A DNA stretch of 64,000 bases from Ascidia mentula (Eukaryota; Chordata; Ascidiacea; Phlebobranchia; Ascidiidae), in NCBI GenBank assembly GCA_947561715.1, contig OX387202.1, positions 2,170,001-2,234,000 on the forward strand. The letters run 5' to 3'. The position numbers were made by a program, and so were the translations under genes. How positions within the stretch are numbered: the stretch's first letter is position 1; every line of letters begins with the position of its first letter. Under the pieces are notes generated by a model. The model saw nothing but the letters and a program-made list of their open reading frames with translations. It had not been told where the DNA came from and made no database searches. Of this stretch, positions 14,901-63,916 are shown piece by piece.

Positions 14901-17900
14901 TTATGGTAATGTTATATTGCTTAATATTATGTTTCAACATAAATCATAATTTATATATCAGTGTAAATTTACAGTTCCAACGGAAAGATTAGATCCAATG
15001 ACCTCTGGCATGGATTTATGGGATATTGGTAATTATAGGATACCTGACCAAAGTGCAATACTCCAAGATTGCATGAGGGCATACAAAACAAATGATGAGG
15101 AGATAATTTCTTCAGTAGCTTCCTCACTTCCTGATTACCTCAATCTAAGTTGCTGTGAAGTTACTCAGGAAGAGATTAAAGCCCTTTCCTTTGTTATTGA
15201 AAGAAGAAAAAAATCGGTATTATTTTATAGTTTATCAATATTCTTAACACCATGATAAATAATGTTTCAGCAATTCAATTTTGTGAAATTGCTTATGTTT
15301 AAACTTTGTTGCTTGACGTGCATGTTAGATGAACACCATGTACTCCTTCCCTATTTGTATTCTTACTACTATACTAATTACAAGTTGATTGTTTCATTTA
15401 GATGTCGTATCTCGATCTCTCCATGAATAATACAGGAGATATTGGAGCAGCTGTATTGGCTCGTTGCATTCACAACATTGAAGAAGTTGATCTGAGTGAT
15501 TGTGGCATTGGAGTTAAGGGTGTGGAAATTCTGTCAGAGAAGATTAAAGATTTACAAAAACCTGTAAGATACAAATCAGAAGTCACATTATAAGTTATGT
15601 AAAACATGGCAATTGGTTATTGTGTAATTTCATATCACCACAAAATGAAACAATAAGTAAATATATTTGAAAAAAAAAGTTTATTTCTGTACTCGGGTTG
15701 TCTTACCATTATACTTTCTTGTTTGACATGCGTGTTCGTTGAAAACCATGTACCCCTTCCTTGTTTGTATTCTTACTAATATTCTAATTTCAAGTTCATT
15801 GTTTTATTCAGATGATGAAACTCAATCTCTCCTTTAACAAGATAGGAGATAGTGGAGCAGCTGCATTGGCTCGTTGCATTCACAACATTGAAGAATTTTT
15901 TCTGTGGAATTGTGGCATAGGAGATAAGGGTGTGGAAATTCTGTCAGAGAAGATTAAAGATTTGCAAAAACCTGTAAGATACAAATCAAAAGTCAAGTGA
16001 ACCATGACAATTGGTTGTTGTGTAACTTCATATCACCACAAAATGAAACAATAAGTAAATATATTTGAAAAAAAAAAGTTTATTTCTGTACTCAGGTTGT
16101 CTTACCATTATACTTTCTTGTTTGACATGCGTGTTCGTTGAAAACCATGTACCCCTTCCTTGTTTGTATTCTTACTAATATTCTAATTTCAAGTTCATTG
16201 TTTTATTCAGATGAGGAAACTCAATCTCTCCTTTAACAAGATAGGAGATAGTGGAGCAGCTGCATTGGCTCGTTGCATTCACAACATTGAAGAATTTTTT
16301 CTGTGGAATTGTGGCATAGGAGATAAGGGTGTGGAAATTCTGTCAGAGAAGATTAAAGATTTGCAAAAACCTGTAAGATATCAATCAGATGCCAAGTGAA
16401 ACATGACTATCAGTTGTTGAGAAATTTTATATCATCACAATAAAAAAATGTGAAAATTAGTTATTAAATTTTGTTTAATTGGGTCTTTTTCTGTACTCAG
16501 GATGTGTGGTCATTATACTTTCCTTGCTTGACTGCATGTTATTCAAACCTGTAAGACACAGTTAGTCCTTCACTTGTGCTTCGTTTGGTCTTTTTTCCAT
16601 TGTTCATATTCTGTTTTGTGACATGAAATTCTCTCAACAGAATAAAAAATATTAGAAACACCTGTAAAATTAACTTTTCACTATTTCAGACTGTTTTATC
16701 ACTTACACTAAAAAAACTTTACTACAGGATCTGCCTGGCTTTTTATCTGGAAGGTTGTTTTGCCGTGGCACAGTAGCATTGCAAAAGGTCTAAGTTTTTT
16801 TTTATGAATAGTCCATTTTTGCTGTTGCATTTTATTGTGTTTACTGTATGGAACTTTCTGATAAAAAGCCAGGTTTATCCTGTAGTAAAAAGCTACTGCT
16901 CTTTTTAGTGTGATTACAAAAGTTTACAGTGATTGCTTGGCCTGCATCTCCAGTTTTGGTTAGAACCCAATTTTTCATTTTTAAATTCAGTTTTATCACT
17001 TATGTTTGTTTGTAGTAATTTGTTTACATTAACCACTGTAACTATGCAACTATCTGATATTGTCCATTTTCTGTTGTTCACATTGTGAATAACCAAAAGA
17101 TATGGTAAACAACTAAAATTAGTTGTTTATCGTGAAATAGTTGTAATTTTGTTCAACATTCTCTAAAATTCTTTGGTAATATTTGTTATGTAATATCTGT
17201 TGTTTAGATGAAATATGTGAATCTACAAGGCAACAGTTTGACGGATGAAAGTGCTGAGTCATTGGCTGGATGTATGCACAATATTGAGTTGTTGTTTGTC
17301 ATAACAAGTAACAACTTTACACAGGCAGGGAAGGATCTCATCAATTCTGAAGTGATTGAAATAAAATGCATGTTTTTGTTGAAAACAAAGTACTAAACTG
17401 TTCATTACAATTAACATTTCTTTTGATCCCAAACTTGCTTTGGTCTGTTGCAAGGTTTTATATGATGTTTAATTTACAACTATAAAGAAACTTATCATAT
17501 ATACTACTAATAACATTGTAATTAATGAGGCATGACTAATAATTTTATTTTCTATATTTTACAGAAACATGAAGAATATGAAGTATTCCAGTCAACATCA
17601 TCAGTGGTTGGTGTGGAAGGTGGCAATCTTGATGTGATGGGTTGTGTTGTTGATATTCCTCCTAATGCACTGGATAAAAATATTAAAATTTGGTTGAGGA
17701 GTTACTATGGAAATACTAAGCCAAATGTAAGTGGCTTAGCCATTGCACTTAGACTTAGCTGACCTTTGCGATTAACTTGCCAATTTCTAAAAAAAATAAA
17801 AGGCTTAATATCAAAAGTATCAATATAAATCTCACCAACATTAATGTTTTGTGAATGTGACGCAACTCAACGAAGAGCCATGTGGCGTGGTCTAACTCCT

Positions 17901-29454: not shown

Positions 29455-30860
29455 TACAAGACCTCAAAAGGTTCATATGTTTTCCGAGTAGCTTTCCCCA
29501 AGTCAACGATTAGATTTTATTGCAAAAAATGTTAAGTAGTTGTAAAATTTCGTTTACGATGTTACATTCCTTAAATTTTTAGAAACAATCTGTTTGTGAA
29601 ATGGCTGCTTTTACCTTATGTGTATTTCTCATGAAAAATGCTCCGTTTCGTTTGATCGGTGAAACACTAATCTGCAGGGGAGAATGATCCTCCTTCTCTC
29701 TTTATTATCCTCCATCATTTCGCGATCGAATTACAGAAGAGGACAGCGACGGAATATCTATTTCATTGTGACGTCACAGTGTATTGTGAAGGTGCCAAAT
29801 ATCAGATTCTGTTTTGTCAGTGCAGAGTCAGTACAGAGTTTTGTCAGCACAGAGTCAGTACAGTGTTTTGTCAGCACAGAGTCAGTACAGTGTTTTGTCA
29901 GCACAGAGTCAGTACAGAGTTTTGTCAGCACAGAGTCAGTACAGAGTTTTGTCAGCACAGAGTCAGTACAGAGTTTTGTCAGCACAGAGTCAGTACAAAG
30001 TTTTTCAGCACAGAGTCAGTACAGTGTTTTGTCAGCACAGAGTCAGTACAGAGTTTTGTCAGCACAGAATCAGTACAGAGTTTCGTCAGCACAGAATCAG
30101 TACAGAGTTTCGTCAGCACAGAATCAGTACAGAGTTTTGTCAGCACAGAGTCTGTACAGTGTTTTGTCAGCACAGAATCAGTACAGAGTTTTGTCAGCAC
30201 AGAATCAGTACAGAGTTTCGTCAGCACAGAATCAGTACAGAGTTTTGTCAGCACAGAGTCAGTACAGAGTTTTGTCAGCACAGAATTAGTACAGAGTTTC
30301 GTCAGTACATTATTTTTGTGGTTTTTCTTCATCATAAAAGTTTTATTTTCAATTCTGAAGTGTTTCAAGATCTGTCCCCAACACGATGTTTAATTTAGTA
30401 GCAATTTTATTTTTTCGAAACAATTTTGTAGTTAACTAAAAAAGCGAAAAGAACAAGGATGTGAATGCTGTTTCCACCGACCATTGTGTTCATAAAATTA
30501 ACTGCATTTACACACGGGGACTTTTTGTAATGTAATACTAATCCAAGTGGGGCCGATGGGAAATTTTGTACAGTGCCTGTGACAAGAATAACGTTTGCAA
30601 GGTAAATTGTGCCAGAAGCGTGTGCGAACTACCTTAAAGTTTTATTCTGCAAAGTAAAAAAACACAATACCGTGCGAGGCATGCCCAGGGCTTTTATCAG
30701 GACTTTCTGGGAGCCTAAGGTAGGGGTCGTACCACGGGCCATCTTTTGTTACCTGGAGATATTGTGTACGTCACAACGGTGTAGTGTTTCGCAGGAACTC
30801 GATATCTCGAACAAAACTACGCATGGAATTGTCACGTGACTTATTGTTTTGAGCAATAAT
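29455..30860 (+). repeat. Segmental duplicate A of the minisatellite locus
   Basis: The whole region, apart from the expanded array, is paralogous to 43015-43870. Shared marks include ACAAGACCTCAAAA, GTCAACGATTAGATTTTAT, TCTAATCTGCAGGG and the right end GCATGGAATTGTCACGTGA. No gene is recognised inside. Confidence 0.75.
29820..30310 (+). repeat. 27-bp minisatellite, 18 copies
   Basis: Eighteen tandem copies of a 27-bp unit (core CAGCACAGAGTCAGTACAGA plus GTTTTGT). One copy (about 29983-30007) is shortened by two bases, which switches the reading frame and explains the long overlapping ORFs in several frames. Copies 10-12 and 14-16 share an AATCAG variant and mix TTTC and TTTT ends, showing block-wise spread of variants. 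The sister locus at 43376-43440 has only about two copies between the same flanks. Confidence 0.92.
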
Positions 30861-32682: not shown

Positions 32683-35600
32683 GTCCAACAAGTTATGATC
32701 CAACATCTACTCGCTCGAATTTGAGGAGGAGACCAAGCGTGGAAAAAATACTTAAAGAATGCGGGAGGGCACATAAATCAAATGATGAGAAGACAACTTC
32801 CTCAGTAGCTTCCAAACTTCCTCATAAGCTCGATCTAAGTTGGTGTGATCTCACTCTGGAGGAAATAAAAAGCCTCTGCTTTGTAATTGAAAGAAGAAAC
32901 AAACCGGTATACTTTAATAGAATTTATAAAAATGATGCTCAAATTTCATCAAATACTTTCTTTTGGTGCTTCTTAGGTTACATAGTTACATATTACGTTA
33001 TTAGTAATTCTTCGGAGTGAAACCGATAGTCAAATATCATAAAGCATGTAATAATTAATTTGATTGAGACTTGTTTTCTAAGTTGTTTCAACTTGATCTC
33101 CAAACCAACAAGATAGGAGATATTGAAGCAGCTGTATTGGCTCGATGCATTCACAAGATTAGACAAGTTTACCTGAGTGAATGTGGTATAGAAGATCATG
33201 GTGTGGAAATCCTTTCAGCGAAAATTAAAAATTTACAAAAACCTGTAAGATACAAATAAAACGGTGTTTGGTGTTATAGCAAGAAGTGGAAAACTTCCGA
33301 AACTTTGGATTTATTGCTTAAATATCAAATCACAAAAAGTAAAATGTTCATTTAAAAAATGCCAAGTTGATATACATTGTCATATAGGTCCAAAATTTTG
33401 GTGCACTATCTTAACATTTTGTCAGCAGAACACTGGTAGAAGCTGCATTCCCCTCTTGGCACCCACGCAAAGTTTATAGCTTGGCATTTTATTTAGATGA
33501 AGAAACTCGATGTCTCCAAGAACAGGATAGGAGATAGTGGAGCAGCTGCATTGGCTCATTGCATTCACAACATTGAAGTAGTTGTTCTCGATAATTGTGA
33601 TATAGGAGATCGTGGTGTTGAATTTCTTTCAAAGAAAATTACACTCATGCAAAAACCAGTAAGATAAAATTGCATTCATAGTGCTGTTTAATATCAAATC
33701 ACATAATGTTAAAATACTGACTGAAATATTGTTTACTTTGAGGAAATGATTTCTATTGCTTTGTTGTTCCATCACTAGTTAATGCATTAAAAGCAATTTC
33801 AGATATTACAGAGCTTTAGGAAATGTGGATTCGCAAATTGCAAGTGTAGTGATGCTTCATTAGTTTTTGCATTCACTGTAAGATCGTGATTAAGTCATCT
33901 AAGTCAATTTAAAGGTATTTCAAACAAAATCATGATTTTGTGATTACAACCAAGCAGTTGTTAGTTTCAAAAGCAAAAAGAGCTTGAAAACTGCTGTGAT
34001 ATTTATTTGAGTGATGAAAGAAACAAGGTTATGTACATAGTCATATAGGTCTAAGATCGCATTGCCTCAACACAATATTAAAGCAATGGTTCTCGATAAT
34101 TGTGATATAGGAGATCGTGGTGTTGAATTTCTTTCAGAGAAAATTTCATCAATGCAAAAAAACAGTAAGATACAATTAAAAATAGTGTTTGGTGTTGTAA
34201 TTGCAAGTGGCAACAACTTTAAACATTAAAGATGCTGTTTAATATCGAATCACATGATGTTAAAATACTAACTTTGAAACAAAATTAACTTTGAGACAAT
34301 GGATCCAATTGTTTTGTAAAGCCATCTCTTTATGATGCAGTAAAACCAAATTCAGATTTTCCTCGACTTTAGGAAAGTAGGATTCACAAAGTCCATGGAT
34401 GCCCCATTAGTTCATGTCTACACTGTGAAGTCATGGTTAACATCATATTTACCTGATATAGGGTCATTTCAAACATGAGGTTGATAGTAACAACAATGTA
34501 GTTTTTGTTTTTGAATGCAAAAAGAAAGTGAAAAGAAACTGTGACAAAACAAGTTTGTGTGCTTAGTTATATAGGTGTAAGTTCCTGTTACCCTAACAAA
34601 ACTTTGGGTGCCTTATTCTTTATGTAGCACCTATGCAAAGTTTATTGTTTGGCATTTCATTCAGATGAAGAAACTCAGACTCTCCAAGAACAAGATAGGA
34701 GATAGTGGAACAGCTGCATTGGCTCGTTGCATTCACAATATTGAAGAACTTTATCTGAGTGATTGTGGCATAGGAGATAAGGGTGTGGAAATCCTCTCAG
34801 AGAAGATTAAAGATTTACAAAAACCTGTAAGATTTCTTTTATGAATTATTGGCAATTCATTTTGTATTCCCACTCATGTCTGTTGTAAAGTTTTCTCAGT
34901 TTTATTGACGTTAAATAAATTAAAGCTCTTTAGGCAAAAAAATATTTTTTTGGTTGACGATAATTAATGTTTTACATGTTTTTCAATGTGAGAACGGCTT
35001 TAAGTTAACTTGTGTTTTTGAATCATTTTTGGCAAGATTTATACAACGTTTACATTTTGTGTAGATGGAAGGCTTGTATTTATACTGCAACAATTTGACC
35101 GATGAAAGTGCTGAGTCATTGACTGCATGCAGACACAAAATCGGGTGGTTGCTTGTCAATATTGAAAACTTTACACAAGCAGGAAAAAATCTCAAAAATT
35201 CAAAAGTAAGGAAACTTTTCATGGTTTTGTACAAGTCAATATACCAAATATTTGTAACAAACTTTACTTCAGAATTCAAAATAGTCTTTGCTTCTGCAGC
35301 TGGGTTATAAACCGTATTTAATTTAAAATTCCATAAATACTGCTGTTATCATTTCGGACAAAGAACTAACATTTTTATTGCGACACCTGATGAAGCAAGA
35401 TCAAGCTCGCGAAAGTGCTATTAAAGTTGTTTACTAGTCTTATCTCTAACAACAGCAGTTCACCAGCAATCATTAGGCCTATAGGTACAGAACAGAGACG
35501 GACAAGACGAATTGAAGAAATTAACTTTTATGTGGGTAACTGATTTTTTACAGAAACATGAAGAATATAAAGTAATCCAGTCAACATCATCAGTTGTTGG

Positions 35601-38600
35601 TGTGAAAGGTGGCAAACTTCGTGTGATGGGTTGTATTGTTGATATTCCTGCTAATGCACTGGAGACAAATGTAAAAATTTGGATGCGAAGTTACTATGGA
35701 AATACTAAGCCAAATGTAAGTGGTTTTACACATGTGATTTGCATACAGGATTTTACTGTCAAAAGAGATCAGACTCAATATCAACTAACCTGACGGGGGT
35801 ATTCGCCGGAATCTGGCCGGCAGTTAGACCAGGGCTAAGCTTAGCCAACTTAGGCTCAGCTTGACCCTTGCGATTACTCCCAAATTTGGGTAACTCAGGC
35901 GTACAATTTCTAAAAGAGAGAAAAGGCTCAATATCGATATTAAATCCAACAAATGATTTTTGTGAGTTATCAACGTTATCAACATGTGATAGACTTTTTC
36001 CCATACACCTATTACTGTGGCTCAGTTCATCAATTTTGAATTATTGACTTTTAAGTCATTTACCCATGAAGGTCCACAAGTACAGTTCAGAGGAAAATAT
36101 AATTAATGCAGCTACAGTGAACAAAACACAGCAAGGATTTGTGGAGCCTCCAGGAGGTTCATATGCCTTATGAGATGGCAGAAAAAGCCCCGGAGGATGC
36201 CGAAACATCTTTTCAATGATGAGTGTTTTTGACATTGCATAGAGAAAGGCATGGCTAACTTTGAATTACCAAATGGATGAGGGTACCCAACGGATCGACA
36301 TTGACCGAAGGGTACCACAAAGTGGAAATTAGTGTGCCGCAAGTGTAAATGCTAGCACAGTGCCACTATCAACAACTGCATACGTTCTGTACTAAACATA
36401 CATCAATAACACACAATTTTTACAACCATGTACAAACATATGGAATATTTTATGTTTGTTGTTTTAACAAATTCAAGATGTATTTTCTTGGCTGTTAGCA
36501 AGAAAATGTTTCATTATTCAACCATTCTATTTAAACTTTTTTAATTGGGTTTTCATTCCACAGAAAGAAATTACTCCATTGTTGTATTGTGGACCAAGTG
36601 GGTTAAAGTTCACCCAAGAAGTCACCATCACTTTACCAACATGTTTTGTGTGTGAAGATTCACAACTTGTTGAAGTAAGTTTAAACATTCATCTTGTGGC
36701 CTTCACTTAAAAGTGCTTTCTTATAAATTAGCAAAAAAACTAAACTGTTTATTAAGCTGTGGTGTTTTTCTAATAGTTTTTATCATTACGTTAAACTCTC
36801 AGCATTTATTGATTGTTAAGGCCATATTTATAAATAAAAAAATAAATCCACTTAAATTTATTCAGTCAACGTAGAAGTAGAAGTGTTAAAATGCATTATG
36901 GAGTAATGAAGGTAAGATACACGAAATAAAACCGTTTAACACAATTTTAAGGTTGAAACAAGTCAAGATGGAAAAACATGGGAATATTATCAAAGTTTAA
37001 ACCACAGTGGGGAGGGAATGATTTCGTTTAAAGTAACTCACTTTACTTGGTAAATGTATACTGATGACAAAATAAATACAGGACAATTAATTTGTTTGCA
37101 TTAAGGTTCCAATCATTGTTAAAAAATGCCTTTGCTTGGTCGAAAAATAAAATAGTTATGGGTGGATTTCCATATAATGAACCTTTTGACTGTGATGAAA
37201 GACTTTGGAAATTTTTCATTTGCGATGACTTGAAATTCAATCAAGGGGAAAATCCACATCTGGAAAAGTTAACTGATTTTGCTTTAAGGTGAAAACCTAG
37301 CAAATGTTATGATTTTATGTTGTATTGATCAGTGTGTTGTAAAAAGGCATTTTCCTGTGTAGGCTTTTTCAATAGAAATTATGCCTTTTGGACCGGGTCC
37401 ACACTCACGTTTTGCTTTGTTTGTTTTATAACCACCTGTGTATACACCTTTTGGTCACAAGAGGTCGAGAGTTCTGCAGTAACACAAAAGATTGAAATTA
37501 GATTTTTTTCTATTGATTATTGCCAGATTTGCCAATTTTTTGTATTAATTATTGCCAGATATCATCAAACTGAAGCAACTCTTATACTTACAAGTGAAAG
37601 TGGTCGAGTTACATTTTCGAAAAATGAAGTCATTTTGATGAATATTTATGCAATCAATTCAACAAAACGTGATATTAGTTGGAAGTTTGCTCCACACATT
37701 GGTTATGAAACAGTGAATGTGAAATTGAAGTTTGTTGACGAGGAACAAGAAGCAGATTTTAGTGCGAAAGTTAACATAAAGGAGGAACAACAAAATCAAG
37801 TGAGATAAAAGAACTTTCATTGCCACTAGCTGTTCAATTGGCATTTAAAACTGTTTATTCATTGTTTGTAGGATGTTCCAAAAAGTGCTGAGCAAAGAAA
37901 TGACGAAAAACAATCAAGTATGGAAAAAGCGCATTTTTTAAAAGTAGATTAATTAATGCAAAAAATTGTTTTACATTTTGGGTTGTTAAGAATAATGAAG
38001 AAGAACAAGCTTCATAATGGTAAATCAGCTTGTTCTTTTACACCAGGTCAATATCTGGGCATAGAGGCACAACACTCAAACATAACAGAAAGTATAGTTG
38101 GAGTTCAGGGTGATGTCCATCAACATTCTGGAAACAGACAGGTAGGATCATTATACTATGTGTGAACTATGCGGAATGTTTGTAATGAATGCAAACATCG
38201 CTAAGTGTATTTATCTGTAGCCTGCGTTATAATGTTGAACTTCAGTTGCGACTTATATTGGATTTTATATCAACTACGCTTGCTGTTTGCAGGACATTGG
38301 ACACCAATCTGGGGTAAATATATTCATAAATCAAAAAATCAATGCGACAGAAACCTCAGGTAAAATGACAAACAGTCAACAACTGATGCAAACTTCATCA
38401 GAAGGTTTGTATTTTTGTTAACTAAGATAAATGATTTCCATTAAGTCACATCGATTGTAGTGAAGATGCACAATTTTGTTACATAATCCGGCAAATATGT
38501 TATTTTTTGGGGAATTCGTTTGTTTAGCGTAACACATCCGTAATAAATCTCACTGAAAGTCATTTGATTAAATGGCCATAAATTAATAAACAATCAAGTC

Positions 38601-50325: not shown

Positions 50326-50641
50326 ATAAGATAACAGTCAAATTAAACATCTAGTCAAACAAAATATACTCGCTCACAACACAGAGATAAATGTGTGTTA
50401 GCCCCTACCACAAGGCAGCTAAAATATTGGTCAATTACACCATGGGATATTCTGTTGATAGTCTAACTACGGTAAACTGTCTGTTAACGGCATTAACGTG
50501 CGTAACAATATATAACAAAGGGGTTTGTTGTTCAATTGTCAAACAAAAGCGAAAGCAAAGCGGGAACGGACAGAGTTCTTCCGTTATAAAGGTCAAAACT
50601 AGTTTTGAGAAAATTTGTGGGGAAATTATTCATAAATAATT

Positions 50642-53014
50642 ATGCCAGATTTTACATGCGAAGTGTGCCAGGCAGTGGTGCACTCCAAGTCGGCTCTGTG
50701 TACTCACAGAAGACGAAAGCATCCTGAAAATTGCAGCGCAGGTTTTGCTTGTGTTTTGTGTAAAACATACAACTGTTTTTCCCAAAAACATTTAATTGAT
50801 CATTTGAACGAAAAACACGAAGAGAAGATAAAAGTAGAAAATATTCAATTCTGTCTGGAGAAAGACTTCGTGGAATGGAAAGCGGAAGTGGAAAAAAACA
50901 CAAATTCGGCGTTTGTGATAAACGCAACATCACACAGCGGGGAATACGACACAATTTACTACGTGTGCAATCGAACAGGTGTTTACTGCCCCAAAGGATC
51001 AGGAAAACGAGTGCTGAAGAGCCAAGGAAGCTCCAAAATCAATGCCAGGTGTAGTGCATATATGGTAAAACGCACGCATAAACGTTCGAATTTAACACAT
51101 GTAGAGTATTGCACTCATCACGTTGGTCACGCACAGCAGCTATGTCACCTGCGACTGTCAGAAAACTTGCGTTCGATGATAACCTCGGATCTCGCAGCAG
51201 GGGTATCGCCAGACAAGCTGCTGGATAAAGTTAGAGAGAATGTAATGTCGATAGACAGGGATGCTTGCGTGACAAAACGCGACATATTTAATATTCGGAA
51301 GCAATATAACATACCCAATATTGAGCGACATTCCAACGACACGGATAGCGTGGACTTGTGGGTCAACGAGCTTGAAAACAAGGCCGATTTTAACCCGATC
51401 GTTGGTTACAAAAAGCAAGGCCACCACAGCGATGTTTTGGGGAGGGATGACTTTGTTCTTTGTATTCAAACCGAATTTCAGAAGGAAATGCTTCTAACAC
51501 ATAGTACAAAGTTTATTTGCATTGACTCCACCCATGGAACCAATTGTTACAAGTTTTTGCTTGTAACAGTTATGGTTGTTGATGATTTTCATGAAGCCAT
51601 ACCTGTTTTTTGGATTATAGCAAACAGGGAAGATTGTCAAATTCTGAAGTATGCCTTTTCTGCTCTTAAAGCAAAAGTTGGAGAAATAACTACAGCTATT
51701 TTTATGTCTGACATGGCCAACAACTTTTACACATCATGGTGCACAGTCTTTCCACACCCTGTTAAACGACTGTGGTGCAATTGGCATGTTGACAGAGCCT
51801 GGAGAAGGGCAATAACAAAATATATCACAGGTAAAGAAGACCAAATGCTTATATATGCATACTTAAAAATTATCCACTATGAGACAGATATTTGTAAATT
51901 CAACAAGCTATTGCAAGAGGTTATCACTTTGTTCGGAGAGGTTTCACCACCTTTTCTTCAGTATTTTGTCAACACCTTCATTTCCGGAGAAAAATTTCAG
52001 CTGTGGGCATCCAGTTGTAGAACTGGTGCTATTGCCAATACTAACATGTATGTTGAATCTTTCCATCAGGTCCTGAAATATGACTACTTTCAAAAAAAAC
52101 AAAATCGAAGAATAGACAATTTGTTGGCAATCCTTTTGAAGTTGTCTAGAGACAAATGCTTTGAACAATTAATAAAAACAGAAAAGGGCAAAACAAGTTA
52201 CAGAGTAACACAAATACAAAAACGGCATAAGGAGTCATTATTACTTACAACAATAGTTCAAGCAGGAGTTCAAACATGGAAAATTGCAGCAACACAACCA
52301 GAGCAGCCATGTTACCAGATTTCAAGAGAGCAGTTGGAATGTAGTTGCAAAGTCAAGTGTGGAGCATGCAAAGTATGTGTCCACTTGTACACATGTACCT
52401 GCATGGACTTTTTGACCAAAAATGTTGCATGCAAACATATTCATGCTGTCCACACGAAATCTTCAACCATATCCATAGCTCATAACCCAGAAATTGGACT
52501 GCAACCTGTTAACACTGCAATAAAAAATACCATAGTTAAAACGATACCTAAACATGCAGAGCAGTTTCAGAAAAAAATTGCCATGAAATTGCAAGAGATT
52601 CTAAATGGAGGCTTGCAATGCAATAATGAAAACAACTTGCAAGATATATATAAAAGAGTATCATCAGTTGCCACGTTTGGCAGAAGTTTAAATGTTAACA
52701 AAGCTGATGTCGCATTTGTAAAACTGGAGACAGTGGCAGCAAACCAACATGTCCAAAAACAAAGTAGATTTTTTTCAACCGCACAGAAACCTGGGCGGAA
52801 AAGAAATCAACTACAGCCACCTTCTCCACAAACTCGCAAAAAAATGATTCATCTACTCTCTGAAGTGAATCCAACAGTTTGTGCAAATTGTTTTCAATCA
52901 GAAGATGAGGCGAACACTTCCAGCATTGAATGGATTCAATGTGATCAATGCAATTTCTGGTTACACCAAACATGCTCACACCAATCCAAATGTAATGTTT
53001 GCATTGGAATGTAG
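50642..53014 (+). CDS. Mutator-like (MULE) transposase with C2H2, SWIM and PHD-like zinc motifs
   Basis: An intact single-exon ORF of 790 codons. N-terminus: two C2H2-like fingers (about residues 5-30 and 37-60). Residues 95-175 form a FAR1/FLYWCH-like Cys/His region. The MULE catalytic core has D295 (ICIDSTHGTNCY), D357 (FMSDMANNFY), the CNWH motif (C379, H382) and a candidate catalytic E472 (MYVESFHQV). A SWIM finger follows (CTC at 585-587, CKH at 597-599). The C-terminus (747-788) is PHD-like with ECD-type spacing ending HQTCSHQSKCNVC. MULE transposases cut and paste DNA from the nucleus. Absence of stops or shifts in such a long frame amid decayed repeats suggests a young element or a selected gene. 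The ATG follows a stop-rich leader. A poly(A)-type AATAAA lies near 53743. Confidence 0.88.
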   Translation: MPDFTCEVCQAVVHSKSALCTHRRRKHPENCSAGFACVLCKTYNCFSQKHLIDHLNEKHEEKIKVENIQFCLEKDFVEWKAEVEKNTNSAFVINATSHSGEYDTIYYVCNRTGVYCPKGSGKRVLKSQGSSKINARCSAYMVKRTHKRSNLTHVEYCTHHVGHAQQLCHLRLSENLRSMITSDLAAGVSPDKLLDKVRENVMSIDRDACVTKRDIFNIRKQYNIPNIERHSNDTDSVDLWVNELENKADFNPIVGYKKQGHHSDVLGRDDFVLCIQTEFQKEMLLTHSTKFICIDSTHGTNCYKFLLVTVMVVDDFHEAIPVFWIIANREDCQILKYAFSALKAKVGEITTAIFMSDMANNFYTSWCTVFPHPVKRLWCNWHVDRAWRRAITKYITGKEDQMLIYAYLKIIHYETDICKFNKLLQEVITLFGEVSPPFLQYFVNTFISGEKFQLWASSCRTGAIANTNMYVESFHQVLKYDYFQKKQNRRIDNLLAILLKLSRDKCFEQLIKTEKGKTSYRVTQIQKRHKESLLLTTIVQAGVQTWKIAATQPEQPCYQISREQLECSCKVKCGACKVCVHLYTCTCMDFLTKNVACKHIHAVHTKSSTISIAHNPEIGLQPVNTAIKNTIVKTIPKHAEQFQKKIAMKLQEILNGGLQCNNENNLQDIYKRVSSVATFGRSLNVNKADVAFVKLETVAANQHVQKQSRFFSTAQKPGRKRNQLQPPSPQTRKKMIHLLSEVNPTVCANCFQSEDEANTSSIEWIQCDQCNFWLHQTCSHQSKCNVCIGM

Positions 53015-55399: not shown

Positions 55400-58300
55400 A
55401 TGGATCCAAAAAAATCCAAATCTGAAAGTTCACAAATGAAATCAAAGACAGGATCTTCGACAAATGAGCAACTTCCACTAAAGCAGAAAAAACATCCTTC
55501 TCATAAAAGGTATGTAATTGCCACAACATGACTTTTGTGCCTGGAAGCTAACCAGACCAACAGTGTAATGCCATGAGACTGCAACGTATGCTGCAATAGG
55601 CAAGCTTAGTGAAACTTAATTTTGAGTATATATAATGTCTGTTTCAAGGCAACTATCCCTCAGGTCAACATACCGGTCTTCCTGTTACTTTCTTTAGTAA
55701 TATAATATTCTCAGTAGTTCCTTCCAATCAAAATATGTTTATTCTTTTAGGCCATGTGAATCCAAACAGCATATGTTACAGAGTTAGCATCGAATCGCAT
55801 TGAGTCTAAGTATAGAATCAGAATAGAATGACCAAACACCAGACTACAACACAGGTAGCCCAGAGCATAGAAAATAATTTACGCAATATCTTGAACTAAC
55901 ACTGAACAGTTCACATAGGAAACAGGATTTGCTTACACACACATGCATTGAACATATTGCTCAACTCATCGAGTTGCTGTCGTGGTGATGATGTAGAATA
56001 TTTTAGCTTGGTATTTATAAGATCATTGAAAGACCAAGCAGGTGCATTACAGGCTACAGTGTAACTGAAACATGCACAGAACTTATTGTCATGTGAATAT
56101 TTTAATAATGCAAAATTAGGAGAAGCTGCTCATCCAAATCTTGGTGTACCAGCTATTGTGCATTTAGATAGAGCCGATTTATTATGTCCTAATGAAAATT
56201 TAACAATCTGTGCTGGCATCAAGCAGTTGTATTTTACCCTGAAATGTTTCTTTGAAATTGTTCCAAAGATCTATTCAAAGTAGCATAAAATCCGCCAAAT
56301 TTGTGTTGCTTCAAACTTTTCATGATAAGTCAGAGCAAAATACAAATGAACAAACACTCGGAGAAGTTTGGCCCATGGTCCCATACCATATCAATACTTC
56401 ACTGACTGAACTGTCTTCACCTGCATTTAGTCTGTGTTGAATGACTTTTGAATAATTTGGTGAAAGTAAATATGCCTTATTGGTCACCCAAATACACTGG
56501 CTTCAATTTCATAGGTCATATTTTTTGAATATTAGCATTGGTTTGTAGTGAACATGTTATTAATTTCTTCATAAAAACCATCATGGTGACCTTGAGTTCC
56601 AAAACAAAATACACAGTTGTTCCTTGAAGCATGTTTTAAATTTCATCTGACACGTTAGGACTCACAGACAGGATCAAATACAGTAGAAGAAACTTTACCA
56701 AAACTCCTTGGAGGGAAATGTCTGGGACATAGAAATTTCATGTTCTCTATAAAAGATTTTTATTGATTTCTACTGTAAACTAACTTTGGTTTCATTGAAT
56801 AGATGAGAGATATGCCTTGCATAAAACCACAGTAGCTAGAATACTTTTGACCACTCATTTTTCTACAAATTCCAATTGCATTTTTTACCTAATTTGTATA
56901 AATTTTCAGGTATATACAAAAAACTCATCATATTTATCAAATAATTTTCACTTATTCACAACCACTTCTGTGATATTCCTAAATTTTCTGTGTGAAAATA
57001 ATTTTTTTTCTTTTAATACCATATATAGATAGTTTAATATATAAAAATTACCAACTAAAAAGGTTTGATGAAGGTATATGTGGTGATGAGCAGATGGAAT
57101 CACAGACAGAAATGGAGACAAAGGCAACTTTTCAAGCCAGTTGTGTATGGTGGGCAGTGTACAGAATAGAATGCCAAGCACAGCACTTACCAATGCAGGC
57201 CATGGTCAGATAGGGAATATCAGGTGTGCATAACAAATTTACATTGGAGGCTAAGACAAGCTTGTGTTTGTATGTTCATAGTTGAGCCAGCGTCATCAGA
57301 AAGTAGTATTGGAAATTTACACAACACCACAGTCTGTGCTTGCAGAACTTATTTTTTAGTACTGATAACATTTTAAAGGTTATCTAAGGTGTAAAAGTTA
57401 ATTCTAGTGGTTTAACATCACAAACTTTTACACTAAATCTGACAACTATTATTGCATAAATATGCAGTAGCCTGTATGTAGGTTTCTCCTTGGTAAGAGA
57501 TAGTGTAGTAGCTAAGTCATGTTCAACAAAAAAGGTGTAATTAAATCTTTATATTAAACAATATCACCAAAAAGGACACAAGACTCTGGATATTCCTCTG
57601 GACATTCCTCTGGACTTTCCTCTGGATATTCATCGATATCAGGAGGTGATGACCATAGGCGTTGATTTAGGGGTGACTGGGGTGACATGGCACCCCTCAC
57701 AAATAAACAGGGGTGACAACGTATGTATTGTCACCCCTGGATTTCGTTTAAATTAAAAATTATTCTCAGAAGAACCACATACATTATACTATGCATAAAG
57801 CTAGTTTCAAACGACTTGTATTATCACCGTCACAATCATGACAAACACAAGTGTCTCGTGGATTATTACGCAGCGCAGCAGTTGTTGTAGCACAATGGTA
57901 AAAATCAGCATTGTTGCGTAATAGATTTGTTTGTTACCTCATAATTACTAAATCTGCAATAGGCCGAGTAAAATAAAAATGTGCTGCTTTCAGTAAGGGG
58001 GTCAATAATTAAAGTGATTAAAATTTAGTGCTACAACAACATGATTCCGTGTTAAAACAAAGTGACACGAAAGGGAATTTGCGTCGTTTACATATGTTCA
58101 GGGCGACATAGGCGCCTAGTTTTTATTTTTCCAGGGGGGGCGGCTATATTATGACGTCATAATTTGTTACCATGACGTCATCAAGTATCGAAAACCTGTG
58201 TTTGAATTTCAATGCATGAGGCGTATTAACCAAAAGGATGACGTTAACGATGAACGCACGAGATCGGTCTACGACACGACTAATAAGTACCAGTTGGCAT

Positions 58301-61300
58301 ATCATACTGCGAGACTGACGTTGCAACAACCGATGTCAGTTACGCAAGCGAAACTAGGTCAACATATTTTCTGTACGTCGTGTAAGAAACACATTTTTTA
58401 GGTCTTTTTTTTCTTAGAACCTTACGAATGCGACGAGTTACATGGTGCGGACAGACGCGCGTAAAGGCCACTCGTTTTTTTTTGAAAAACCAGGGGGGGC
58501 GTCCCCTGCCCCCCCGGACTAGGCGCCTATGCAGGGCGATACGATTGATGAATGTTTTTTGCGTGTTTCTATAATTTGGAAAGTCACCCTTAATATTTTA
58601 AAAAACATTACAAAATCGACGCCTATGGTGATGACATAAACACTCGCAAAGGTCAACAGTTTTCTGTTTTAAGTGAAATTAAATACAACATATATTTTAT
58701 CCCACCATTCGATAAAACACGATAAATAATTTTTAATAACAAACTTATAGTAGTGTTTTACGATAATGTTATGTCATTGGTTGATATTATGTATCAAAAT
58801 GAATTATATCAGTGTAAATTTGCAGTTTCAACAAAAAGATTAAATCCAATGATCTCTGCCTCCTATCGGAGGAGACCTGACCAAAGGGCAATACTCCAAC
58901 GTTGCATGACCGCCTACAAAACAAATGATGAGAAGATAATTTCTTTAGTAGCTTCCTCACTACCTAAAGGCCTGGATCTAAGTTTGTGTGAAGTTACTCA
59001 GGAAGAGACTGAAGCCCTCTCCTTTGTTATTGAAAGAAGAAGCAAATCGGTATTATTTTATAGTTTATGAAACTTCTTAACAACATGATAAGCAAATATA
59101 TACATAATGTTTCAACTTTTTGTAAAGCGCTCACAGTTTAGTGCCAAGGATGTGCTGTCATTATATTTAATTTTTTGAAAACCATGTACTCCTTCCGTGT
59201 TTGTATTCTCACAAATATCCTATTTCAAGTTGATTGTTAAAATAAGTGAAAAAAAATTAAAAAAATTGAGTTTACTTTATTACTCAGTATGTGTGGTCAT
59301 TACACTTTCTTGCTTGACATGCATGTTCGTTGAAAACTATGAACCCCTTCCTTGTTTGTATTTTTACTAATATTCTAATTTGAAGTTCATTGTTTCATTC
59401 AGATGAGGAAACTCAATCTCTCCATGAACAAGATTGGAGATAGTGGAGCAGCTGCATTGGCTCGTTGCATTCACAACATTGAAGAACTTGTTCTGAGTAG
59501 TTGTAACATAAGAGACCAGGGTGTGGAAATTCTCTCAGAGAAGATCAAAGATTTGCAAAAACCTGTAAGATACAAATCAGAATTCAAGTAAAGCTTGACA
59601 ATTGGTTGTTGTGTAATTTCATATCACCGCAAAATGAAACAATAAGTAAATATATTTGAAAAAAAAGAGTTTATTTCTGTACTCAGGTTGTCTTACCATT
59701 ATACTTTCTTGTTTGACATGCATGTTCGTTGAAACCATGAACCCCTTCCTTGTTTGTATTCTTACTAATAATCTAATTTCAAGTTCCTTGTTTCATTCAG
59801 ATGGGGAAACTCGATCTCACCTACTACAAGATAGGAGTTAGTGGAGCAGCTGCATTGGCTCGTTGCATTCACAACATTGAAGAACTTGATCTGCATAGTT
59901 GTGACATAGGAGATCATGGTGTGAAAATACTCTCAGAGAAGATTAAAGATCGGGAAAAACCTGTAAGATATAAATCAGATGCCAAGTGAAACATGACTAT
60001 CAGTTGTTGAGAAATTTTATATCATCACAATAAAAAAATGTGAAGATTAGTTGTTAAATTTTGTGAAATTGGATATATTTCTTTACTCAGGATGTGTGGT
60101 CATTATACTTGACATGCGTGTTCGTTGAAAACCATGAACCCCTTCCTTGTTTGTATTCTTACTAATAATCTAATTTCAAGTTCCTTGTTTCATTCAGATG
60201 AGGAAACTCGATCTCTCCAAGAACAAGATAGGAGTTAGTGGAGCAGCTACATTGGCTCGTTGCATTCACAACATTGAAGAACTTGCTCTGTGTTATTGTG
60301 ACATTGGAGATGAGGGTGTGGAAATTCTCTCAGAGAAGATTAAAGATTTGCAAAAACCTGTAAGATACACATTAGAAGCCAAGTGAAACATGACTATCGG
60401 TTGTTGAGAAATTTTATATAAACACAATAAAAAAATGTGGAAATTAGTATTTGAATTTTGTTAAATTGGGTTTATTTTGCTACTCAGGATGTGTGGTCAT
60501 TATGCTTTCTTTCTTGACATGCGTGTTCGTTAAAAACCATGCATCCCTTCCTTGTTTGTATTTCTACTAATATTCTAATTGGATGTTTATTGTTTCATTT
60601 AGATGAGGATGCTCGATCTGTCCTCAAACAAGATAGGAGATAGTGGAGCAGCTGCATTGGCTCGTTGCATTCACAACACTGAAGAACTTGTTCTGTGGGA
60701 TTGTGGCATAGGATATGAGGGTGTGGAAATTCTTTCGGAGAAGATTAAAGATTTACAAAAACCTGTAAGATACAAATCGGAAGCCAAGTGAAACATGACT
60801 ATTGGTTGTTGAGAAATTTTATATAAACACAATAAAAAAAATGTGAAAATTAGTTGTTAAATTTTGTAAAATTGGGTCTATTTTGGTACTCGGGATGTGT
60901 GGTCATTATACTTTTTTGCTTGACTGCATGTTATTCAAACTTGTAGGACACAGTTAGTCCTTCACTTGTGCTTCGTTTGGTCTTTTTTCCATTGTTCATA
61001 TTCTGTTTTGTGACATGAAATTCTCTTTACAGAATAAAAAATATTAGAAACACCTGTAAAATTAACTTTTCACTATTACAGATTGTTTTATCACTTACAT
61101 TAAAAAAAACAGTGGCTTTTTACTACAGGATCTGCCTTACTTTTTATCTGGAAGGTTGTGTGCCTTGACACCGTAGCATTGAAAGAGGTCTAAGTTTTTT
61201 TTTATGAATAGTCCATTCTTTGCTGTTGTTGTTTTTCAGCATTTTTAATATCATTTTATTGTGTTTACTATATGGAACTTTTTGATAAAAAGCCAAGTTT

Positions 61301-63916
61301 ATCCTGTAGTAAAAAGCTACTGCTTTTTTTAGGGTGATTATGAAAGTATACAGTGATTGCTTGGCCTGCATCTCCAGTTTTGGTTGGAACCCAATTTTTC
61401 ATTTTTAAATTCAGTTTTATCACTTATGTTTGTTTGTAGTAATTTGTTTACATTAACCACTGTAACTATGCAACTATCTGATATTGTCCATTTTCTGTTG
61501 TTCACATTGTGAATAACAAAAAGATATGGTCAACAACTAAAATTAGTTGTTTATCATGAAATAGTTGTAATTTTGTTCAACATTCTCTAAAATTCTTTGG
61601 CAATATTTGTTATGTAATATCTGTTGTTTAGATGAAATATGTGAATCTGCAAGTCAACAGTTTGACGGATGAAAGTGCTGAGACATTGGCTGGATGTATG
61701 CACAATATTGAGATGTTGTTTGTCATAACATGTAACAACTTTACACAGGCAGGGAAGGATCTCATCAATTCTAAAGTGATTGAAATAAAAAGCATGTTTT
61801 TGTTGAAAACAAAATACTAAATTTTTCATTACAATTAACATTTCTTTTCATCCTAAAATTGCTTTGGTCTGTTACAAGGTTTTATATGATGTTTAATTTA
61901 CAACTATAAAGAAACTTATTATATATACTACTAATAACATTGTAATGACTGATGCATGACTAATAATTATATTTTCTATATTTACAGAAGCATAAAGAGT
62001 ATGAAGTAATCCAGTCAACATCATCAGTTGTTGGTGTGGAAGGTGGCAAACTTGAAGTGATGGGTTGTGTTGTTGATATTCCTCCTAATGCACTGGATAC
62101 AAATGCAAAAATTTGGTTGAGAAGTTACTATGGAAATACTAAGTCAAATGTAAGTGGCTTAGCCATTGCACTTAGACTTAGCTGACCCCTGCGATTAACT
62201 TATCAATTTCTAAAAAAAGTATATGTTCTGGTCCAAACACTTAATCTGTTTAAACAAATGACAAAAAATATTGATGCATCAACAATACACAATTTTTACA
62301 ACCATGTACATACATTGGCAAAATTTTATGTTTGTTGTCTTTACAAATGCAAGATGTAATTTCTTGGCTGTTAGGAAGTAAAATGTTTCATTATTCAACA
62401 ATTATATTTAAATTTTTATTATTGGGTTTTCATTCCACAGAAGGAAATTACTCCATTGTTGTATTGTGGACCAAGCGGGTTAAAGTTCACCAAAGATGTC
62501 ACCATCACTTTACCAACATGTTTTGTGTGTGAAGATCTTCATCAACTTGTTGTGGTAAGTTTAAACATTCATCTTGTTGCCGTTACATGTTTCATATTTT
62601 AAAATAAAAAAATAAATCATCTTGAATTAATTCAGTCAACATAGAAGTACAAGTTTTAAAATGTATCATGGAGTAATGAAGGTAATTTATAATTCTTATG
62701 TAGAAACACTAGATACACTTTTATTTTAAATGATGTTGTAATGAAACTGTTTAATAAAATGTTAAGGTTGAGACAAGTCAAGATGGTAAAACATGGGAAT
62801 ATTATCAAACTTTATCCTACAATGGAGAGGGAAAGATTACATTTAAAGTAACTCATTTTACCTGGTAAGTGTATTTTTTTAAAGAAATGTAAAAAAAATT
62901 GCCTGAGTCTTGTTTTTGTACTTGAAGGTTTCGCGTTATTCGGAAGAAACTCTTTGGTTGGTCAAAGGAGAAAATGGTCCTGGGTGGATTTCCATCAAAG
63001 GAAAGCTCTGACTCTGCTGAAAGACTTTGGAGACTTGTTATTTGTGACAACTTGCAGTTCAACTTAAAGACTGATGATAACCTCAATAAGTTGCTTGGTT
63101 TCACTTTAGGGTAATGAATCACATCGCAATTGTGATAAACAATTGCTTAAAATAATGTTTGGTAGAGATGTTATAGGTTTTCAGTTAGTCTATCGGTAGT
63201 CAAATCCCTACCATCAAAGATCACAACAATACAAAAAAATCTCTTTTTTGATCACTCGACCAACATTAAAAGCAAACTTTTGAATTTTTGAAAATATGTA
63301 CATAAATCTTTACAAAAAAAAACAATTTGACCATACAACGGCAAGCTAATCAATGCGAAAATATCAGTAACATTCTAAAACAATGATATTTTGTCGTGAG
63401 ATTCTTGATAATGCTAAAATAAATTTTAAAAAATATTTTCCCATTCACAAGCATTAAACTTCATAGTTTGGTTATTATTAATCAAATCCAAGGTGTATCA
63501 AAATAAATTTTCAATAGGGTAAACAGTGAAATGCCATCCATGATGTAACACTCTAACAAGTCACTTAATAACAATACTAATTGTGCCTAATCCGTTTCAA
63601 TAAATTCCTTTGCCAATACATTTTTTTTGTATGTCTAAACAAAGTACATAATATTCTTCATTACTTGTTTACCAGATCAGATCAAAATGAATCTACACTC
63701 GCACTCAAAAGTGAATCTGGTAGAGTAACATTCAATAAAAATCCAATCAAATTGAAGAATACATTTTCAAACAATTGGACACAACATGAGGTTTTGTTTA
63801 AGTTTTCTCCATACAGAGGTTATGAAATGGTTAATGTTGAATTGGACTTTCATGGCAAGCCATTCACAACAGATTTTGGTATAAAAGTTGAAACAGAAGA
63901 CACACAAGAAAAACAA
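55400..63916 (+). CDS. LRR-ZU5-UPA protein, gene 3 (partial; transposon in an exon; runs off the window)
   Basis: Exons by eye: 55400-55509 (start ATG; same length and phase as exon 1 of gene 1), a disrupted exon about 57573-57653 plus 58636-58651, 58826-59049 (LRR cap), 59403-59564, 59801-59962, 60198-60359, 60603-60764 (two LRRs each), 61632-61775 (terminal LRR), 61988-62149, 62441-62554, 62767-62864 (ZU5, ending VTHFTW), 62928-63110, 63676-63916 (UPA-like). C-terminal exons would lie past 64,000. Everything from the cap onward is open and in phase. The second coding exon carries a 974-bp hAT-type insertion plus its 8-bp duplication (982 bp, not a multiple of three). The copy is therefore either broken there, spliced around the insert, or started downstream. 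Confidence 0.72.
57063..57123 (+). other. Candidate alternative second exon of gene 3
   Basis: An open segment encoding FDEGICGDEQMESQTEMETK follows AAAAAG and keeps the phase needed after exon 1. It resembles part of the exon at 14675-14802 and matches the relic at 14050. No clear donor is visible (AAGGCAAC follows), so splicing is uncertain. If used, it could help bypass the hAT-interrupted exon. Confidence 0.3.
57654..58627. mobile_element. hAT-type DNA transposon (non-autonomous) in gene 3, host of a nested element
   Basis: Terminal inverted repeats CATAGGCGTTGATTT (left) and the complement of CATAGGCGTCGATTT (right) bound 974 bp. A perfect 8-bp duplication GTGATGAC flanks it (57646-57653 and 58628-58635), the size typical of hAT elements. 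Inside the ends a GGGGTGACTGGGGTGAC-like motif recurs. No transposase ORF is visible. Removing the insert and one duplication joins an open frame ending AAAG|GTCAAC like the exon of gene 1, so it landed in coding sequence. A second element sits inside it at 58107-58531, which makes this one about 541 bp. Confidence 0.85.
58107..58531. mobile_element. Nested hAT-type MITE
   Basis: A 425-bp element with 14-bp ends CATAGGCGCCTAGT and its complement, flanked by a perfect 8-bp duplication CAGGGCGA (58099-58106 and 58532-58539). It carries C-runs and G-runs just inside both ends and a TGACGTCA palindrome near 58151-58158. Its ends share the CATAGGCG start with the host element, so the same or a related transposase may have moved both. 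No coding capacity is seen; a 67-codon open stretch inside is not conserved with anything I recognise. Confidence 0.85.
59403..61775 (+). repeat. LRR exon array of gene 3 (four cassettes plus terminal LRR)
   Basis: Four 162-bp exons start at 59403, 59801, 60198 and 60603, a period of 397-405 bp that covers both exon and intron. The backbone (ALARCIHNIEEL, GVEILSEKIKD) is nearly fixed at DNA level. The codons at xLxxCxI vary freely: LVLSSCNI, LDLHSCDI, LALCYCDI, LVLWDCGI. The first-repeat tops vary too (NLSMNKIGDS, DLTYYKIGVS, DLSKNKIGVS, DLSSNKIGDS). The terminal LRR exon at 61632-61775 matches that of gene 1. Confidence 0.85.
61098..61335. mobile_element. Inverted-repeat MITE in a gene 3 intron
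   Basis: Counterpart of 16706-16910 with fuller arms (TAAAAAAAACAGTGGC and TTTTTACTACAGGAT inverted at the right end) and a 30-bp longer centre. Downstream sequence (TGATTGCTTGGCCTGCATCT) is also shared with gene 1 and loosely with 4040-4130. Confidence 0.65.
61988..63916 (+). other. ZU5 and UPA-like exons of gene 3
   Basis: Exons 61988-62149, 62441-62554, 62767-62864, 62928-63110 and 63676-63916 are all open with the lengths seen in genes 1 and 2. ZU5 signatures are GVEGGKLEVMGCVVDIPPNA and CGPSGLKFTKDVTITLP, ending VTHFTW. The UPA-like part (EKMVLGGFPSKESSDSAERL) is close to gene 1. The poorly matching introns carry only scattered shared blocks. Confidence 0.75.

Follow-up and report, generated by a model that had tools for sequence, protein, structure and literature searches.

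Organization of Gene 3 and Its Neighbors

The window, by which we mean the whole 64,000-nucleotide stretch analyzed here (C70:2170001-2234000, where C70, C71 and C52 are sequences of one ascidian genome assembly), carries three genes with LRR exons, all on the plus strand. The mitochondrial code of this genome is the ascidian one: COX1, on C79, uses TGA for Trp and has AGG at seven positions where, judged by eye, Gly is usual, and its five conserved Arg are encoded by CGN. Gene 3 was read as 13 exons in a single frame, giving a product of 665 residues up to the window end, past which its tail exons continue. This product runs from a polar N-terminus through a Ser/Gly/Tyr-rich stretch, half an LRR cap, four LRR cassettes and an LRR cap to ZU5 (three exons) and then to a presumed UPA (two exons).

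Exon 1 of gene 3 (55400..55509), which starts MDPKKSKSESSQ..., is polar and Lys-rich; its spliced frame closes and it has counterparts in other copies, and by inspection it shows no hydrophobic leader or signal peptide. The low-complexity Ser/Gly/Tyr-rich stretch is encoded by exon 2 (57575..57645), which has AG/GT borders and keeps exons 1 and 3 in frame with each other, while exon 3 (58826..59049), supported by frame and counterparts, completes the N-terminal region and ends in what looks like half an LRR cap. The four cassettes follow, each of 162 bp in phase 0, preceded by AG and followed by GT, and encoding 54 aa that make up two RI-type LRRs. At the codons found to be variable (see below), cassette 1 (59403..59564) carries N5, M8, V30, S32, S33, N35 and Q39; cassette 2 (59801..59962) D5, Y8, D30, H32, S33, D35 and H39; cassette 3 (60198..60359) D5, K8, A30, C32, Y33, D35 and E39; and cassette 4 (60603..60764) D5, S8, V30, W32, D33, G35 and E39. 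The C-terminal LRR cap exon (61632..61775; 48 aa) was placed by frame and by its counterparts in other copies.

Downstream lie ZU5 exons a (61988..62149), b (62441..62554) and c (62767..62864). The frame supports exons a and b, and Pfam recognized ZU5 (PF00791) at 28 bits in the ZU5-UPA piece and at 25.5 bits in the 665-aa product, against a cut-off of 21. Exon c ends in ...VTHFTW, at the place where PIDD undergoes HF/S-type self-cleavage according to the part of PMC3210808 available to us. The two exons that come next (62928..63110 and 63676..63916) are supported by frame and by counterparts in other copies, and we presume them to encode UPA from their position after ZU5; Pfam gave no FIIND/UPA match in the 665-aa product or in the presumed UPA exons of a second gene subtype, while order and length fit.

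Gene 1 contains three intact cassettes (15402..15563, 15812..15973 and 16211..16372), the third identical to the second at the seven variable residues, followed by ZU5 exon a (17565..17726) and more exons up to about 20380. Gene 2 contains intact cassettes at 33083..33244, 33497..33658 and 34665..34826, with a broken one near 34060-34148 after the second of these, then ZU5 exon a (35554..35715) and a presumed UPA of the second subtype up to about 37800. Behind gene 2, at 37953-38300 of the window, we observed an open stretch with SNITESIVGVQGDVHQHSGN, which is kept in one other copy, at C70:2152965. Two further features of the window are a minisatellite at 29811-30309 (a 27-base unit in 18.5 copies, with several open frames on both strands) and a stop-to-stop frame of 792 codons at 50636-53014, which, judged from its matches to MULE transposase (8.5e-8) and ZSWIM RNaseH-like (2.7e-8) profiles, is a transposase or transposase-derived gene.

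A Large Tandem Family

Gene 3 is one member of a large tandem family. Its first ZU5 exon has 80 matches genome-wide, 34 of them on C70, and 27 fall within a cluster at C70:2.09-2.64 Mb, 26 on the plus strand; among the copies listed from this cluster, the exon order of gene 3 was found again. A genome search with the cassette returned at least 107 matches at E<=2.3e-12 among the best 150 of 940 candidates, all on C70. The stretches that we examined contained 84 cassette matches, of which 78 were intact (162 bp, AG and GT borders, stop-free); the other six, being broken, truncated or stop-bearing, were excluded from all exon comparisons. Some gene copies look broken as well, as judged from the ZU5 exon a at C70:2255538, which has a TAG, and from two presumed UPA exons that contain a stop. 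With 78 of 84 cassette matches intact, decay was rejected as a general reading of these sequences.

The 78 intact cassettes belong to 20 gene arrays on the one chromosome, C70, and the copy-number differences that the initial annotation had proposed looking for are present: arrays vary from one to seven intact cassettes, these numbers being lower bounds for some arrays beyond C70:2.08-2.344 Mb that were covered in part. Since the compared cassettes are of phase 0-0, their gain or loss leaves the frame intact. Read from its sequence, the family plan is an N-terminal cap, 1-7 exchangeable 54-residue LRR cassettes, a C-terminal cap, ZU5 and, after it, the presumed UPA, which in one gene subtype is followed by a short conserved tail. 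The gene 2 cassettes (window 33083-34826) recur with equal or near-equal scores near C70 2354595, 2368037 and 2522576, up to about 320 kb distant, which points to recent segmental duplication.

The ZU5 Module and Its Surroundings

At the putative self-cleavage place, the cluster copies end their ZU5 in HFT (12 of 13) or HFS (1 of 13), and two more distant ZU5 genes (L034 and L036) have HF-A. Self-cleavage of PIDD, NLRP1 and CARD8 needs Ser, and Thr is named among the general nucleophiles of such reactions, in the portion of PMC3210808 that we could consult.

As far as the window reaches, the 665-aa product of gene 3 showed no NACHT domain, nor did any lie in C70:2.08-2.65 Mb among the matches listed (the best 95 of 317 candidates), and with no NACHT in its product gene 3 was not classed as an NLR. 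Classification as PIDD, which has two ZU5 and a C-terminal Death domain, was likewise rejected, as the product up to the window end has one ZU5 stretch and none of the 17 Death matches listed falls in the cluster; no CARD or Death domain was found. Three tails and two stretches of presumed UPA had no match in Pfam. We also looked for a conserved effector exon downstream of the tail by comparing the open frames of three gene tails with nine, but no frame carried a convincing coding signature; the best had 31 residues and a pN/pS of 0.32 from 12 differences.

Elsewhere in the genome, as read from sequence, the same ZU5 module is placed after NACHT-LRR and GBP domains. At L034 (C71:12435000-12440000), NACHT, LRR and ZU5 exons stand in a row, and at L035 (C52:21195500-21201000) a GBP-type domain (PF02263, 3.7e-6) precedes the same ZU5 exon; the latter lies in a region (C52:21.157-21.449 Mb) with six strong ZU5 matches, at one of which the GBP layout was read. 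We also observed, on the minus strand at C70:3811863-3819955, a tail exon with ...HIITAGGSVNKTNTQ... in tandem (12 matches, about 341 bases apart). At L036 (C70:3816900-3824500), nine of these tail exons were read, near-identical and behind a ZU5 exon at 3823489. Such a tandem array suggests a tail that may be multivalent or self-assembling.

Variation Is Concentrated at Seven Cassette Codons

The initial annotation had described the cassettes as an almost invariant DNA backbone with variation confined to the codons around a strand motif. The codons that it quoted are all there: codon 30 reads GTT, GAT, GCT and GTT along gene 3, and genes 1 and 2 supply TTT and TAT, respectively; at codons 32-33 the gene 3 cassettes have AGTAGT, CATAGT, TGTTAT and TGGGAT, and gene 1 has TGGAAT; and codon 35 occurs as AAC, GAC and GGC. 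We found seven of the 54 codons (5, 8, 30, 32, 33, 35 and 39) to be variable, including codons 5, 8 and 39, which had gone unmentioned. Base differences among the 10 intact exons of the window came to 45.3% at these seven codons and 11.6% at the other 47, and within gene 3 to 43.7% and 8.3%, for which "almost invariant" is too strong a term. "Confined" also overstates the pattern, as the seven codons account for 41% of the amino-acid differences among the 78 exons.

Across these 78 exons, the amino-acid entropy of the seven codons is 1.7-3.1 bits, highest at codon 8, and the amino acid differs in 68-86% of pairs. Eight further codons (2, 3, 7, 28, 29, 42, 46 and 52) differ in 30-50% of pairs and the remaining 39 in fewer. 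The 78 cassettes carry 75 distinct seven-residue sets.

The cassettes belong to the RI-type LRRs (LRR_6 profile, 8.4e-34), and when the four joined cassettes of gene 3 were compared with the PDB, a GALA LRR protein scored best (3.4e-22), followed by ribonuclease inhibitor (6.5e-17), with NLRP3 lower. In a low-confidence model of one cassette (pLDDT 62.7), residues 2-5 and 26-30 form strands, and residues 13-22 and 38-51 are helical; Foldseek searches with this 54-residue model gave weak matches, none at E<=0.001 and mostly LRR proteins on top, with RanGAP1 and NOD2 first and the LRRs of NLRP1 and ribonuclease inhibitor also present. The proposal that the variable codons are exposed strand positions holds, by motif, for codons 5, 8, 30, 32 and 33, which are x positions of L-x-L-x-x-N/C, but not for codons 35 and 39, which come after the strand motif, within the loop and close to where the helix starts. 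Residue 7 is another x of the strand motif and is Ser in 65 of 78 cassettes. The motif register is the main ground for taking the seven as not buried; the secondary structure of the model is consistent with this, though at low confidence. Ligands of LRR proteins usually bind on the face made up by the strand with its turn (PMC3138743, in the section available), which is also where VLRC has its variable residues (PMC3900441, likewise in part). We presume, from the motif register, that the seven codons lie mainly on the binding face; their residues would line the concave surface and the adjoining loop, and the family proteins would be recognition molecules.

Replacement Change Outpaces Introns and Synonymous Sites

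Replacement change at the seven codons runs at several times the intron rate, whereas ZU5 and the greater part of the LRR scaffold are conserved. Over all 3003 exon pairs, pN was 0.445 at the seven codons and 0.081 elsewhere, with a pS of 0.154 and an intron divergence of 0.288. The excess over introns is large where introns are close and falls to a ratio of 1.01 where they are more than 40% apart, a loss at the most distant pairs that saturation predicts. In the 26 pairs with introns less than 5% apart, pN at the seven codons was 0.321, pS 0.068 and intron divergence 0.038.

We then considered 18 independent, non-overlapping exon pairs with introns up to 12% apart. Nonsynonymous change in these was 0.376 (122/324) at the seven codons and 0.047 (93/1985) elsewhere, against 0.096 (58/606) at synonymous sites and 0.054 (370/6846) in introns. 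The seven codons exceeded the pair's own intron in 17 of the 18 pairs and the other codons in 6, and by bootstrap (95%) the seven-codon divergence was 5.7-8.6 times that of introns and 3.2-5.0 times pS. Because the seven codons had been picked from the data, a held-out test was used, in which codons were picked on half of the genes and measured on the rest in 20 random splits; the same seven were picked in all 20, and held-out close pairs had a mean pN of 0.391 there, compared with 0.046 elsewhere and a pS of 0.096. Along the exon, in the 27 pairs with both introns less than 6% apart, divergence per 20 bases peaks at 0.10-0.18 over two strand-loop patches, and the helix segments, at 0.017-0.033, lie below the intron mean of 0.037. 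The diversifying selection put forward in the initial annotation is thus supported, replacement change at the seven codons standing well above both introns and synonymous sites.

Rates were also estimated codon by codon on trees, from 77 exons after removal of one exact duplicate (76 with introns on both sides); such rates presuppose the absence of recombination, a premise violated here by the exon/intron recombination signal described below. Many slow codons also reach P>=0.9, and for this reason we counted only sites that beat the intron rate as well. On the intron tree these were codons 3, 5, 30, 32, 33, 35 and 39, with log-likelihood gains over equal rates (grid) of 4.2-14.5 except at codon 3 (0.2). 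On the whole-exon tree all seven variable codons pass the P threshold, with gains of 0.6-2.9 except at codon 32 (9.5). The expectation of raised dN/dS at individual codons is therefore borne out on the intron tree for codons 5, 30, 32, 33, 35 and 39, which are above synonymous and intron rates, but not for codon 8, whose rate ratio does not exceed 1 on two of three trees and which shows equal high rates on the intron tree. It should be noted that pS exceeds intron divergence in the 18 close pairs (0.096 and 0.054) and falls below it over all 3003 pairs (0.154 and 0.288), an opposite order which indicates that introns and exons do not follow a single clock.

For the remaining exons, copies with gaps, stops or less than 90% coverage were removed. 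The pN/pS of ZU5 exons a, b and c was 0.53, 0.31 and 0.29 (13, 9 and 11 distinct copies), and that of the presumed UPA exons 0.41 and 0.75 (seven distinct copies each). The N-terminal exon gave 0.97 and the C-terminal LRR cap 2.49, each from five distinct copies, too few to use; the cap value fits selection on the strand codons of the cap.

Recombination and Other Explanations for the Variable Codons

The explanation that competes best with selection is that the variability is mainly shuffled, with gene conversion copying short patches from a shared pool and a homogenized backbone making those patches look fast. Several results lean this way. Over the 1007 pairs with both introns less than 25% apart, the exon backbone correlates weakly with the left intron (rho 0.08) and the right intron (0.29), the two introns correlating at 0.33, and in some cases, each involving exon 2306256, nearly identical backbones are accompanied by right introns that differ by 50-56%. 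Site compatibility over exon and introns declines with distance (p=0.002 at 60 and 100 bases, p=0.08 at 30), and the variable residues of a cassette's two repeats are nearly unlinked, with 1 of 10 cross pairs linked at p<0.05, compared with 8 of 10 residue pairs inside the second patch. These partly separate histories of intron and exon suggest that exon-scale recombination also acts, and the cassette shuffling raised in the initial annotation holds up to that extent, for exchange at the level of exon and intron blocks; within exons, the test for recombination gave no significant result (p=0.10-0.33). Shuffling would, however, move silent and replacement variants alike, whereas replacement at the seven codons is 3.9-fold silent change (0.376 against 0.096). 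The 78 exons moreover hold 68 distinct second patches, and when all 2926 pairs are taken, the exon is correlated with the left intron (rho 0.50; 0.37 for the right intron and 0.43 between introns). We therefore regard shuffling as an unlikely main cause.

Dscam-like alternative splicing of the cassettes, which would add diversity at the RNA level and explain intron likeness as splicing control, appears less probable still. The cassettes are of equal length, in phase 0-0 and in runs of 1-7, which would suit such splicing, but 2 of the 20 arrays have a single intact cassette.

Relaxed constraint, under which the seven positions tolerate any residue, suits the finding that five of the seven are surface positions by motif. 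Relaxed sites should nevertheless not outpace introns, which the seven codons do in close pairs by the bootstrap ratio given above; on this ground neutral drift and relaxed constraint were rejected, and we hold the latter to be very improbable.

Least credible is a local mutator acting on the seven codons, of the kind known from the assembly of VLRs, from hypermutation of antibodies or from diversity-generating retroelements: the rates are indeed very local, but the excess lies at codon positions 1 and 2 (0.51 and 0.36, against 0.16 at position 3), and synonymous change at the seven codons, somewhat higher than at other codons over all pairs (0.214 against 0.148), is near average in close pairs (0.077 against 0.067 below 5%, 0.141 against 0.100 at 5-10%), which speaks against a simple hotspot and led us to reject local hypermutation.

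Discussion

We consider it likely that the family is a germline-diversified set of intracellular sensors, in which variation on the LRR binding face is wired to a FIIND-like switch. That the products are intracellular receptors or sensors is probable, their cytosolic location having been judged by eye. In the mechanism that we propose, the variable residues would make direct contact with a range of ligands, either non-self or produced by pathogens. Through unequal exchange and gene conversion, the cassettes would retain a common scaffold and pass variants to one another, and selection would keep change at the contact positions. The ZU5-UPA-tail part may then be freed when a ligand binds or the N-terminal part is lost, perhaps following self-cleavage at HF/T, and the freed tail could recruit partners.

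A bolder version, which we offer as possible but rather doubtful, is that these NACHT-less "LRR-FIIND" receptors form a germline VLR-like repertoire, whose cassette number and contact residues would be recombined and selected exon by exon and possibly mixed by splicing. In that case, the common ZU5-UPA together with a tail motif that occurs repeatedly (...HINIAGGSVNKTNTQ...) would constitute a plug-in signaling module, which might assemble with itself and would work for NACHT-LRR and GBP sensors too.

Tunicates, the sister group of the vertebrates, are not known to possess either antibodies or VLRs. Fast change at contact codons is expected of molecules that must track changing targets, and if the sensor reading is true, the family would show a chordate keeping a broad recognition repertoire in its germline with a conserved signaling module, and would give the NLRP1/CARD8-type ZU5 switch a wider, modular setting. 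In the portion of the literature that our searches brought up, we found no publication on tunicate LRR-ZU5 genes.

Among known proteins, NLRP1 and PIDD resemble the family in having LRRs before ZU5-UPA (UPA being presumed here), and the likeness to NLRP1, CARD8 and PIDD extends to the HF-(T/S) at the self-cleavage place (PMC3210808, in the part available). The ascidian proteins differ from these three in being without NACHT, in having no CARD or Death domain that we found, in the Thr of 12 of 13 copies and in their tandem, hypervariable LRRs. As to the sensor modules joined to ZU5, the sources accessible to us in part describe NACHT-ZU5 proteins of sponges, cnidarians and ctenophores (PMC12909245), a zebrafish GBP with FIIND and CARD that resembles the ascidian GBP-ZU5 layout (PMC4932187), and animal TRADD-N proteins with FIIND (PMC8195603); in contrast to all of these, the ascidian family has an LRR-only sensor with selected cassettes.

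With respect to the repertoire, zebrafish NLR-B30.2 genes likewise form a large clustered family marked by duplication, gene conversion and positive selection, although recognition there is assigned to B30.2 rather than to the LRRs (PMC4852459, as far as its available text goes). In highly variable plant NLRs, residues of high entropy are grouped on the surface of the LRRs, where they are predictive of binding sites (PMC8226289, in excerpt); those proteins belong to another kingdom and have another signaling part, whereas the ascidian variation repeats cassette by cassette. Lamprey VLRs, like the family, are built of modular LRR units between caps and vary chiefly on the concave face of the strands (PMC3900441, in the portion consulted). 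Unlike VLRs, which are assembled somatically from flanking LRR donor cassettes, the ascidian genes, as read from genome sequence, have RI-type LRRs, no signal peptide by inspection, and complete cassette runs already in the assembled genome.
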